Source: an uncultured SAR86 cluster bacterium
GTDB lineage: Bacteria > Pseudomonadota > Gammaproteobacteria > Magnimaribacterales > D2472
Assembly (NCBI GenBank): GCA_902511575.1
Contig: CABXFU010000001.1
Location: 62,001 to 126,000, forward strand
Direction of reading: 5' to 3'
DNA length: 64,000 nucleotides
How positions within the stretch are numbered: the stretch's first letter is position 1; every line of letters begins with the position of its first letter. The notes beneath the pieces are model-generated. The model made no database searches. It saw nothing but the letters and a program-made list of their open reading frames with translations, and had not been told where the DNA came from. Made by a program: the position numbers and the translations under genes. This document shows, one piece after another, positions 4,501 to 8,057 of the stretch.

Positions 4501-4670
4501 GGAGAGGCTCCATCTAAAAATACTGACACGCTAACAAGAGGCAATTGAATATTTGGATCAGCAGCCACACCAAGAGAAGATCGTGCGATCGATCCAGCAA
4601 CAATTACAAGCAGAGCTAGGGCAAGGGTAGTTCTTGCTTTTGATAAAGCAAAATCTACAATTTTAGTCAT
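1539..4670 (-). CDS. RND-family efflux transporter permease (AcrB/MexB-like superfamily)
   Basis: Inner-membrane proton-driven exporter of 1043 aa, typical for hydrophobe/amphiphile RND pumps. The N-terminal TM1 is followed by a periplasmic porter domain (DGASPEDASRLI, VPGVKELSS), a TM2-TM6 block, a second periplasmic loop and TM7-TM12. In TM4 the usual Asp-Asp pair reads LIDGSIVV (about residue 395), leaving one Asp; in TM10 the region is GIVVNNNIVLID (about residue 920), with Asn where AcrB has Lys940. These variants occur in less-studied RND subfamilies, so the substrate cannot be inferred from AcrB. The start overlaps the adaptor stop by 4 bp. No outer-membrane TolC-type gene is adjacent. 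Confidence 0.9.
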   Translation of the reverse strand: MTKIVDFALSKARTTLALALLVIVAGSIARSSLGVAADPNIQLPLVSVSVFLDGASPEDASRLIARPLETRLRSVPGVKELSSSARLSYARIVAEFEVGYSIDTALRDIKQAVEEVKFELPREAEDPQIREYSFAMFPVMNLSLIGSASLRQKVFIARELQDKLESISEVLAADLEGVPQEVLVGIIDKSKMETYGITLNQLYNSISSNNLIIPGGAQDTGSGKFNIEVPGIFETAEDVYNIPIKVTRDAVVTLSDIGEIKRTFKDYSSFAKVNGEDAITLEIRIRVGANAIDAKTEILKVVSNFQETLPPNLSIVKTNDETVWAEMMISELEGNIITAIFLVMVLVIASMGVRVGMLVGLSIPFCFLLTFIILKVVGIEFNFLVMMGLLLGLGMLIDGSIVVTEYADRKISEGLNRLEAYRLASKRMFYPILSSTATTIAAFIPLIFWPGFTGQFMRYLPVTVFIVLTASLVYAMIVTPVIGSIFGQRRSTLVSGENEQTGEIVFDKISTFYGKWLRTFVKNPGETLIAVLMLLWFFGYAMYGNFGKGTIYFADVDPFAAEINIRARGNFSALESKEIMEKVESSISDVRGVENLYLTTGSQWFNSGGDTMSRGFLEVGMTNDGELTGNEIIKNVEAAVSYLPGIIVEITPEEGGPGFSSPIELGIFGNNEDQVAQATQRIEKYLQDDVIGLTNINTTLPHPLIEWKVEVDKQKAAQLGVSMMDIGALVQMLTNGFKVGEYRPDDSKDEIEIRARFDTELRSLSGIKDLKVNSINGLIPISTFIKLVPSQNRQSVVRRNGKFFHEIGIATDTGYLVSDKVTEIGAWLETQDFGSEITTQFRGQQEETEEVTAFLSGAALTALALMLILLVTQFNSFYQSILVLSAVFMSVVGVLIGLMIMGKPFSTTMNGIAIVALSGIVVNNNIVLIDTFNRLTGEFPNLSKEEVIMKACKQRLRPILLTTTTTIFGLLPLAVGVSIDVLSREILIGSRVVEWWTLLASSIVFGLSFSTVLTLIFTPAALILPSRVKAWLQNRFGLFKTAS

Positions 4671-5548
4671 GCATCAGACGGGAAAGTTGTTTGTACCTTC
4701 TCGCCATTTTTTACAAATCCCTGACCAAGCACAATAAGCTTTGAAAGATTTGGAATTCCTGTAACCCATATTCCATCATTAGTATCTTCAATGATTTTAA
4801 TTGGTAAAAATTTAACCTCATCATTTTCATTGACAGCTCTTACACCAAGGTCACCTTCATCTGATAGTAGTAAAATAGATGGCGATATTTTATTCGCAAG
4901 CACCTTATTGGTTTGGATTGTCATTGTGCCGGTAATTCCATCTCTTATCTTGCCACTAGCATTTGAAACTTTTGCTTCGACTCTAAAGGTACGAGTAGAA
5001 GCCGATGCACTTTTTGATACAAAACTTAATTTACTCTTGATCACTTCACCTGTAACAAGTTCAATTGAAACTTTTTGCTCATTGATTACCCTTTTAATTT
5101 CTGTTTCAGGAACTTCAGCAACAAAGGTGATAGGATCCAATTCAATTATCACAGCGCATGCTTGACCTTTGCTTAGGTAATTACCTGGCTTAACAATTCT
5201 TTCAATATAGCCTTTGAATGGTGCTTTTACTTCTGTTCTGTTGAGTTCAACTACGCCTAGTCTGCAGAGTACTTGGTCTTTTTCTACCCAGTCGCCTTGA
5301 AAGACATTATTTGGCATAACTTCTCCTGAGGTTTTAGCTAAAATATTTACTCTTTTCTCAGAAGTGGCTGAAGAATTTAATTTAATTGAAGGCGAAAAGA
5401 ATGCAGATTGACTTTCAGCAATAACAACTGAAGATAATTTATTATTTGCCTTTTCTGCTAATTTTACGTCTTCTACAAATTGACCAGAAATCATCCAGGC
5501 TATTACTGGAATTAAAATATATAGAGAAATCCTGACGTTTTTTGACAT
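4667..5548 (-). CDS. RND efflux periplasmic adaptor (membrane fusion protein) lacking the alpha-hairpin
   Basis: Adaptor linking the RND permease to an outer-membrane channel. A hydrophobic N-terminal anchor (about residues 6-22, no lipobox Cys) is followed by the biotinyl-lipoyl half-motif AKTSGEVMPNNVFQGDWVEK. Only a few residues later comes the second half-motif EVKAPFKGYIERIVKPGN, then the beta-barrel and membrane-proximal domains. In AcrA/MexA about 70 residues of coiled-coil hairpin separate the two lipoyl halves. Here they are absent, explaining the short length (293 aa against about 380). Encoded immediately upstream of the permease (4-bp overlap) behind a promoter carrying a perfect palindrome. 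Confidence 0.85.
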   Translation of the reverse strand: MSKNVRISLYILIPVIAWMISGQFVEDVKLAEKANNKLSSVVIAESQSAFFSPSIKLNSSATSEKRVNILAKTSGEVMPNNVFQGDWVEKDQVLCRLGVVELNRTEVKAPFKGYIERIVKPGNYLSKGQACAVIIELDPITFVAEVPETEIKRVINEQKVSIELVTGEVIKSKLSFVSKSASASTRTFRVEAKVSNASGKIRDGITGTMTIQTNKVLANKISPSILLLSDEGDLGVRAVNENDEVKFLPIKIIEDTNDGIWVTGIPNLSKLIVLGQGFVKNGEKVQTTFPSDA

Positions 5549-5638: not shown

Positions 5639-6298
5639 CTAGATGTTGTGTTTTTTTCTAAGTTTTTCTAATAAATCTATATCTAAAGGCTCCAAAGCAT
5701 CTAATTGTTCCTTGGGTGCAACTTTAAATTCTTTTCCAGCTTTCATTTCTCTGACCAAGCGCATATAGGTTTTTGAAAAAGCTTGAAAAGCATTATTATT
5801 ATTTTGAGAATTAATTAAATCCCAGCCAATCTCTCTTCCTGCCCAATAAACAATGGGATGAGTCCAAGCAAAGTTTTGCCTTGGTGATGAAGATTTCTGA
5901 GCTTCAATAAATGCCTCTTGCGGAGTTGGAATATTTATTGCACCCATTGATCCTGAGCATGCTTTGAGGACTTCCGTAAGAGTTGGGAGATAGTCATTTG
6001 ATTGAATCACCGTTTCTACAGCAGCATTAATGCATTCAGCTGGATATTTTTTTAAGCTTTCTGCCCAAAGCTTTTTTGCCTCAGTGAGTCTGATATCAGT
6101 GCCAAAAACTTTATAAAATTGATAATGATAAGAAAGCTCCAGCTTTAAAAAAAGATTATCAATTGCCTCAATAAAGCTTTTTCTATCAGAATTCGAGATT
6201 TTCTGCCCAGGAATCATCTTTTGTTCTGTCTTTGAACTTTTGAGAAAATTCTCCTGGTTCATTATGTCTGTTATTTTTTTTGTCATTTTTTTCTTCAT
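5639..6298 (-). CDS. Lambda replication protein P-like helicase-loader candidate
   Basis: A 219-aa protein resembling the phage lambda P / 'replication protein P' family, whose phage member recruits and remodels the DnaB helicase. The recognisable order is a helical segment DNLFLKLELSYHYQFYK, then EAKKLWAESLKKYP, then the family-typical SNDYLPTLTEVLKACSG. A C-terminal half follows with HPIVYWAGREIGW and MRLVREMKAGKEF. The start is ambiguous: ATG at 6298 overlaps the upstream gene by 113 bp, while internal Met codons at 6286, 6259 and 6217 would shorten the overlap. It directly follows a DnaT-domain gene, which supports a primosome role. No other phage genes are nearby. Function is inferred from family resemblance only. 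Confidence 0.65.
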   Translation of the reverse strand: MKKKMTKKITDIMNQENFLKSSKTEQKMIPGQKISNSDRKSFIEAIDNLFLKLELSYHYQFYKVFGTDIRLTEAKKLWAESLKKYPAECINAAVETVIQSNDYLPTLTEVLKACSGSMGAINIPTPQEAFIEAQKSSSPRQNFAWTHPIVYWAGREIGWDLINSQNNNNAFQAFSKTYMRLVREMKAGKEFKVAPKEQLDALEPLDIDLLEKLRKKHNI

Positions 6299-7004
6299 AG
6301 GAGCCTATAAACTCTTTGCGTTTAACAAAATCTACAAATTTTGAGTTCCAAGACCTTAGAGCAGTTCCATTTTCTTTCCAATAGAGTATAAACTCCTTCA
6401 AGTGTTTTAATGCATCATTTTTTGAAACATTCGCTAATTCTAAAATATCAAAAGCATCAGAAGAGGGTGACCAGCTTTCATCTATACAGACAGGCAAACC
6501 CTTATTTTCAGAGTTTTCTTTGACCCACTCTCTACGAATAAAATCCACAAATAACACATTCCAGTTATCCCTAACTTGATTTTTTTCCAACCAATACATT
6601 TTGAATTCATTCACTTTGCTCTCAATAAATTCTTTATTAATCTTGCCCATACTCAAGACTTCAAATGCTTGAATAGAAGGGGCCCAAGAGTAATCAAGCT
6701 TTCTTTTTCCGGCATTGAGATTATTGGAAGGTAGCTTCAAAGAATAAAGGTTTTTTTTTCGAGAATCTTCGTTTTTTTTAGAGGCTGCTTCTGAAGGGAT
6801 TAATTTTAGATCAATTAATCTCTTTATATGTTTAAGGATTTCCTCGTTCTCTAAAAAAGGAATTTTCTCTTTCAGGCTTGTTGCTATTTCGCTTGGCGTA
6901 AATATTTTAGTTTTAATTGTTTTAGCGGCAGCTAGAACAACAGCACATTCTATGCCCAATGTTTCTGCTTCTTGAATGGAGAAAGTAAATAAGTCTTCTT
7001 TCAA
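6186..7004 (-). CDS. Protein with two tandem DnaT-type ssDNA-binding domains
   Basis: The 272-aa product has a helical N-terminus (1-90) that may form a winged-helix. It is followed by two copies of the DnaT C-terminal domain: residues about 107-160 (SWAPSIQAFEVL, then EFKMYWLEKNQVRDNWNVLF) and about 178-231 (SWSPSSDAFDIL, then EFILYWKENGTALRSWNSKF). The Trp-Pro, YW and W-N-x-x-F positions are the family hallmarks. E. coli DnaT has one such domain and acts in PriA-dependent replication restart. The TTG start at 7004 abuts the stop of the DAHP synthase gene at 7005, and the 3' end overlaps the P-like gene. Likely binds ssDNA or primosome partners; unproven. Confidence 0.75.
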   Translation of the reverse strand: MKEDLFTFSIQEAETLGIECAVVLAAAKTIKTKIFTPSEIATSLKEKIPFLENEEILKHIKRLIDLKLIPSEAASKKNEDSRKKNLYSLKLPSNNLNAGKRKLDYSWAPSIQAFEVLSMGKINKEFIESKVNEFKMYWLEKNQVRDNWNVLFVDFIRREWVKENSENKGLPVCIDESWSPSSDAFDILELANVSKNDALKHLKEFILYWKENGTALRSWNSKFVDFVKRKEFIGSYEEKNDKKNNRHNEPGEFSQKFKDRTKDDSWAENLEF

Positions 7005-8057
7005 TTATCCTCGCCTCTTTTCAACAGCTTCGCTGATTGTGTTAAGGCAGTTAAGAGTGTCATCCCAGTTCATGCATGCATCAGTAATGCTTTGACCGTA
7101 AGTGAGGCTTTCTGTAATACTTTGATTTCCCTCAACTAAATGACTTTCGAGCATCAGACCTCTTAAACTTTGATTGCCTGCTGAAATTTGTGTAGCTAGA
7201 TTATTTACAACATCAATTTGTTTTTTAAATTGTTTTTGACTATTTCCATGGCTCGCATCAACCATAATGGAGTCATTTACATCAGCCTCAACTAATGCTG
7301 TTAATGTTTGTTGGATTGCTTCTGAACTAAAATTAGGCTCTTTCCCACCTCTAAGAATAATGTGTGAGTCTGAATTTCCAGATGTCTTATATATTGAAAC
7401 TTTCCCATCTTTGGTATTTGAAAAAAATACATGCGGATGATTTGCAGCTTGAATACCATCAATTGCAGGTTTTAACGCACCAGTTGTTCCATTCTTTATG
7501 CCAATTGGACAAGATAGGCCAGATGCAAGCTCTCTATGCGACTGACTTTCTGCAGTTCTAGCCCCTATGGCTCCCCAAGAAATAAGATCTGCAACATATT
7601 GAGGTGAAATTGGATCTAAAAATTCCGTTCCGACTGGTAGACCCATTGAAGTGATGTCTCTGAGAATTTTTCTTGCTAGCTTTAAGCCTTTGTTTGCGTC
7701 ATAGCTTTCATTAATATCTGGATCATTAATTAAACCTTTCCAGCCTACAGTTGTTCTTGGCTTCTCAAAATATACCCTCATGATGATAAGCAAATTAGCG
7801 TTTAATGATTCTTTGGCTTCTTTTAACAAGTGGGCGTATTCAAGAGCAGATTTTGGATCATGAATTGAGCAAGGACCACACACAACAATCACTCTATCGT
7901 CTTTCCCATGAAGGATTTGGCTAGCCTCATTCCTTGTTCCATACACTAATTTTGAAATTTCATCAGTAAGTGGATATTCAGAAATTACGTCATTCGGCGT
8001 AATGAGATCGAACTTTTCAACAATTCTTGTATTGTCTGTGTGGTAAATAGATTCCAT
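7005..8057 (-). CDS. aroG: 3-deoxy-7-phosphoheptulonate (DAHP) synthase, class I
   Basis: First enzyme of the shikimate pathway: phosphoenolpyruvate plus erythrose 4-phosphate give DAHP. The 350-aa length equals the E. coli AroF/G/H isozymes. Visible motifs are VVCGPCSIHDPKSALEYA (metal Cys), KPRTTVGWKGLINDP, GARTAESQSHRELASGL and the C-terminal metal site MVDASHGNSQKQ. The feedback-inhibited isozyme type (Phe, Tyr or Trp) cannot be told from sequence alone, so the gene symbol is provisional. ATG at 8057 faces the divergent scpA gene across a 166-bp control region. Two replication-like genes follow it without a gap. Confidence 0.93.
   Translation of the reverse strand: MESIYHTDNTRIVEKFDLITPNDVISEYPLTDEISKLVYGTRNEASQILHGKDDRVIVVCGPCSIHDPKSALEYAHLLKEAKESLNANLLIIMRVYFEKPRTTVGWKGLINDPDINESYDANKGLKLARKILRDITSMGLPVGTEFLDPISPQYVADLISWGAIGARTAESQSHRELASGLSCPIGIKNGTTGALKPAIDGIQAANHPHVFFSNTKDGKVSIYKTSGNSDSHIILRGGKEPNFSSEAIQQTLTALVEADVNDSIMVDASHGNSQKQFKKQIDVVNNLATQISAGNQSLRGLMLESHLVEGNQSITESLTYGQSITDACMNWDDTLNCLNTISEAVEKRRG

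Follow-up and report, generated by a model that had tools for sequence, protein, structure and literature searches.

A DnaT-type and lambda-P-type gene pair as the candidate DnaB-loading system of SAR86 bacteria

The T/P gene pair behind the DAHP synthase gene

The window analysed here, a stretch of 64,000 nucleotides from an uncultured SAR86 cluster bacterium with a genome size of 1.39 Mb, carries on its minus strand a gene cluster that begins upstream with an AroG-type DAHP synthase gene (7005..8057; PF00793, E 1.5e-90). It continues with two genes, which we call T (6186..7004) and P (5639..6286), and with a conserved downstream neighbour coding for the membrane-fusion protein (MFP) of an RND pump (4667..5548; PF16576, E 4e-19), whose function is probably unrelated to that of T and P. 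The AroG stop and the T start adjoin (TAATTG, window 7002-7010), with the TTG start of T right after the TAA; as originally predicted, both genes lie behind the DAHP synthase gene without a gap. The genus of the window shares this gapless junction, and in genus g7 it reads TAG-GTG; the start of T is mostly only a few bases away from the AroG stop, often at a non-ATG codon (TTG or GTG), an arrangement that suggests translational coupling of AroG and T. The neighbouring ORFs (IspA, RND pump, MFP, AroG, ScpA/ScpB) include no phage gene, which agrees with the earlier statement that phage structural, integrase and lysis genes are missing around the pair.

T encodes a protein of 272 aa with the C-terminal end SWAENLEF. 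An N-terminal helical domain, predicted at low confidence to be winged-helix-like, precedes two tandem domains of the DnaT ssDNA-binding type; the Pfam DnaT profile (PF17948; cut-off 25 bits) matches T at two places, with 107.7 bits (E 2.4e-31), bearing out the tandem DnaT domains of the original prediction. A match to PHROG_1032 ('replication initiation protein') covers the DnaT-like part only, and in the Pfam search T shows no match to a phage O family, matching DnaT instead. The top Foldseek matches of the AlphaFold model of T are the ssDNA-binding domains of E. coli and Salmonella DnaT (prob 0.90-0.98), at weak E-values of 0.2. The protein is 100% identical to one of SAR86 cluster bacterium AG-313-N18, and the remaining 79 best T loci come nearly all from SAR86 or marine gammaproteobacteria.

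For P, both profiles and structure prediction point to a protein of the lambda-P / G39P type. Like T with PF17948, P scores above the threshold of its Pfam family, PF06992 (Phage_lambda_P), with 33.2 bits where 26 are needed (E 5.5e-8), and it matches PHROG_109 ('P-like helicase loader') with an E-value of 1.4e-16; a G39P-type profile match falls just below its cut-off, and the first domain of P compares with G39P by sequence at E 0.02. The top Foldseek matches of its AlphaFold model are chains of 9oa1, in which lambda P is bound to DnaB (prob 1.00, again with a weak E-value of 2e-3), and the first domain also matches G39P (1no1; prob 0.96). The model consists of a helical body, a low-confidence linker (pLDDT<50) and an isolated C-terminal helix (194-203).

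The overlap of the DnaT-type gene with the lambda-P-like gene, also part of the original prediction, comprises about 101 nt of the minus strand (6186..6286) that encode the C-terminus of T in one frame and the N-terminus of P in another. The longest frame of P runs from 6298, but translation probably starts at the ATG at 6286, which lies 101 nt upstream of the T stop and is kept in 19 of 19 same-genus loci. The codon variation of the T frame at unchanged residues drops from about 0.45 to 0.21 in the overlap. A halving of this kind is expected for DNA that is read in two frames, which argues for a real overlap of the two genes.

Conservation of the locus and its phage relatives

Since a class-wide search with PF06992 proved insensitive, missing even the P of the window, profiles built from SAR86 sequences were used instead. 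T is present in 133 of the 151 genomes of the order, including 39 of the 40 good ones, and in 22 of 22 genera. P was found by genome-wide profile search in 86 of the 151 SAR86 genomes, distributed over the families f1 (50/55), f3 (36/40), f2 (0/35) and f4 (0/21); among 61 family genomes, 55 have a single copy, as do all 19 of the good ones. A handful of incomplete genomes lack T and P. The gene order AroG-T-(P)-MFP-AcrB holds at the loci examined in all four SAR86 families and is kept also where P is missing, and ScpA/ScpB lie on its other side at every locus long enough to show it. Because this synteny spans all four families, the T-(P) locus is, as judged from gene order, a resident one and not a prophage; the genes are kept in one place through SAR86, with P absent in f2 and f4, and the pair is not a feature merely of prophages in relatives.

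A prophage remnant was rejected on the grounds of order-wide synteny and missing phage neighbours. The pair could nevertheless be the stable relic of an ancient prophage that has no cellular role, or it could act against phages, for example by sequestering DnaB. G39P-type proteins are able to inhibit helicases, and relatives of P exist in Halomonas phage QHHSV-1 and Bordetella phage PHB09. However, the pair is kept order-wide in a single place, in genomes streamlined to ~1 Mb, its reading frames are conserved, DciA is excluded, and integrase and structural genes are absent among the neighbours, making either reading very improbable in our view.

A phage reservoir of the T-P pair was rejected as well: in 50,697 phage records, T has no match and P has two weak ones. 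Viral contigs yielded no match to P and a single T-like one, in an apparently Mu-like contig; the protein encoded there (L228:3893-4585) has two DnaT repeats, so that DnaT arrays occur in mobile elements too. P-like genes were also seen in apparent prophage or conjugative-element settings of other gammaproteobacteria, most of them with DciA (L060, L061, L063, L065). Genes of this type probably make up the mobile source pool.

The C-terminal tail and the loss of P

The C-terminal tail of P (...DLLEKLRKKHNI; 5639..5677, minus strand) is predicted to form an isolated helix after a flexible linker, and we propose it as a DnaB-docking helix. P of the window ends in LLEKLRKKHNI, and a tail of the pattern LxxL(R/K)xK(H/Y)x(I/L) ends P in families f1 and f3. 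The T proteins of f2 and f4 have a longer end, which finishes in the same kind of tail (e.g. FKKLKEKHQI, IKDLRKKYKI). Relocation of P to another place in the f2 and f4 genomes was considered and discarded, as the genome-wide profile search finds no P there. When 146 loci were scored with a fixed pattern, the tail was found on P at 120 of the 131 P-bearing loci, the other 11 being truncated, ambiguous, one-residue variants or the distant loci L058 and L059. On T it was found at 15 of 15 P-less loci, as against 0 of 131 P-bearing ones; since the pattern was drawn up with the sequences in view and the loci share ancestry, these counts represent a contrast and not independent trials.

The motif spans only about ten residues, of which five or six are informative, and it seemed conceivable that the tails of P and of P-less T are alike by chance, as short basic hydrophobic C-termini, in which case T of f2 and f4 would work otherwise. 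Yet of 719 other proteins encoded at these loci none ends in the pattern, and of shuffled T ends only 0.2% do, set against the T proteins of the 15 P-less loci, which all carry it, and those of the P-bearing loci, which all lack it; its occurrence on T coincides with the loss of P, in two families that are not sisters. A chance likeness therefore appears quite unlikely to us. The relationship of the families was obtained from a five-gene tree, (f2,(f3,(f4,f1))), with a support of 1.0 at both deep nodes joining f1, f3 and f4, in which f2 and f4 are not sisters under any rooting. As f2 and f4 are non-sister, P was probably lost twice, on separate occasions, with the tail kept on T, which is the simplest reading of these sequences. 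The tailed forms of T, in which the tail may have been fused on or have arisen anew, also differ from each other, with the end motif of T being kept before the tail in f2, but not in f4. While the pair was confirmed where the original prediction had placed it, the more informative fact lies outside the coordinates given there, in the half of the SAR86 families that are without P and have the tail on T.

P also occurs in shortened form. In genus g7 it has 145-151 aa and lacks the second domain, with the tail being kept, and the shortened P proteins of g7 and L058 both retain the G39P-like module. At L058 (4982-6491), in a genome that lacks DciA and belongs to a different family, a T with three DnaT repeats overlaps a short P of 170 aa; this pair has a weak tail and sits among genes of housekeeping type, between biotin-carboxylase-like and homoserine-acetyltransferase-like ones. 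The order AroG-T-P recurs at L059, in a distant genome from another family of the class, where the tail is not clear. In a further DciA-lacking genome from another family, a single ORF of 397 aa (L062:5335-6525) joins two T-like N-terminal segments to a P domain; a DnaT domain was not detected in this ORF, and the fusion speaks for a physical link between T and P.

Helicase loading in SAR86 and in known systems

DciA (PF05258) was not found in any of the 151 SAR86 genomes at E <= 0.01, and the same model matches 191 of 230 genomes across the class. A likely AAA+ loader of the DnaC/DnaI type was not found in SAR86 either: the PF01695 (DnaC/I) matches listed are partial, lie in DnaA-sized (~430-485 aa) or Lon-sized (~800 aa) frames and look like DnaA or Lon, an assignment made from the length of the frames, the range of the profile matched and the location at the start of closed contigs. 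Class-wide, five of the genomes with a PF17948 hit lack DciA and one has it (Fisher p = 6e-4, counting related genomes as separate cases); in the one that has it, the DnaT-domain gene adjoins a DnaB-like helicase gene in an apparent prophage. With DciA absent from 151 of 151 genomes and no likely DnaC/I among the matches listed, T-(P) is, on the strength of these profile searches, the strongest candidate for loading DnaB on the chromosome of SAR86, although an unrecognised other loader could exist.

T and P might instead be an accessory of replication restart (the primosome) only, with oriC using another loader or DnaB loading itself. For the DnaT domain, a part in restart is known: E. coli DnaT forms filaments on ssDNA with PriA and PriB (PMC13377028). 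In SAR86, however, PriB_gamma does not rise above its cut-off in any of 11 genomes, so that a primosome of the E. coli PriA-PriB-DnaT style is unlikely; moreover, the essential loader would be missing altogether, given the absence of DciA and of a likely DnaC/I, and the partner P is of the loader type, not of the restart type. We consider a role confined to restart unlikely. Of the original prediction, which saw in the pair an alternative way of loading DnaB at restart or initiation, the loading role remains the best reading, with an E. coli-style primosome being unlikely and the system not new in kind.

We think it likely that T and P constitute a resident DnaB-loading system of SAR86 that stands in for DciA and DnaC, and that the tail on T takes over the gripping by P in f2 and f4. 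T would coat or bind ssDNA by means of its tandem DnaT domains and thereby mark the loading site, and P, held by T, would deliver DnaB. The system would act at oriC, either in place of restart or in addition to it. The tail helix of P may bind DnaB at its linker-helix/docking-helix site, which DciA and DnaC also use (PMC9912922). This contact is proposed by analogy with lambda P. In the cryo-EM complex, the C-terminal segment of each lambda P forms a lasso, through which a helix comes to lie on the linker helix of DnaB; lambda P residues K177, K200 and K229 crosslink near the DnaB CTD, and a construct of residues 103-233 binds DnaB, with the register of sequence to structure being tentative according to the authors (PMC6391071). 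Residues 219-228 of lambda P, IAEIKAKFGL, fit the SAR86 tail pattern. The tail would then be the key, irreducible DnaB contact of P, and in f2 and f4, where the globular part of P is lost, T alone would bind DNA and grip DnaB by its own tail. More tentatively, a single DnaT-repeat protein may be a complete DnaB loader or recruiter in these two families, with a lambda-P-type tail derived from P, a state that would have been reached twice independently. If so, a loader can be reduced to a DNA-binding array and a docking peptide that is portable, and proteins of the DnaT type can interact with DnaB without an intermediary.

SAR86 is an abundant lineage of the surface ocean, and a literature search turned up no study of how its helicase is loaded. 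If our reading is true, an entire order relies on a loader that is neither DciA nor DnaC and has a DnaT-type partner, and the natural deletion series of full P, shortened P and a tail only on T names the indispensable part of a lambda-P-type loader. It also bears on how DnaT leads to the recruitment of DnaB in E. coli restart, which is stated to be unknown (PMC13377028), as the DnaT-domain protein of SAR86 seems to carry a DnaB-docking helix of its own.

Among the known systems, DciA is proposed to share its job with SAR86 T-P, but has an unrelated fold and occurs in 0 of the 151 genomes. E. coli DnaT has in common with T the domain of the ssDNA-binding type; T, however, has two to three copies of it, a different N-terminal domain, P as a partner instead of DnaC and, in f2 and f4, a loader-type tail, and PriB was not found alongside it in 11 genomes. 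SPP1 G39P (1no1) resembles P in the first domain and in being a small module with a flexible C-terminal part, whereas it lacks the second domain and a resident chromosomal role. With phage lambda P (6BBM, 9oa1), P shares the Pfam family, the predicted fold, the C-terminal helix after a linker and the tail pattern; unlike lambda P, which reaches only 15.6 bits with the SAR86 profile, it is resident and sometimes shortened or absent.

The closest parallel is a chromosomal one. According to Brezellec et al. 2017, lambda O/P have reportedly been domesticated in other gammaproteobacteria as DopC/DopE, a proposed DnaB loader. Two species (G254, G366) of one DciA-lacking genus carry, in the same chromosomal place, a lambda-O-like gene (332-348 aa) paired with a lambda-P-like one (263 aa; L090:3765-5583, L091:3937-5707), which is probably of this published type; the P end there, LSKLKAQFTKA, resembles the SAR86 tail. 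The domestication work of 2017 is cited in PMC13326638. As in DopC/DopE, which we compare by description only, P of SAR86 is a chromosomal lambda-P-type gene next to that of a DNA-binding partner, in genomes without DciA and DnaC/I. In contrast to DopC/DopE, this partner has tandem DnaT domains, is encoded behind AroG and is not of the lambda-O type, and two families have lost P and carry the tail on T. A chromosomal loader derived from lambda P is thus not new in kind; what sets SAR86 apart is its DnaT-type partner and the loss of P with a tail on T.
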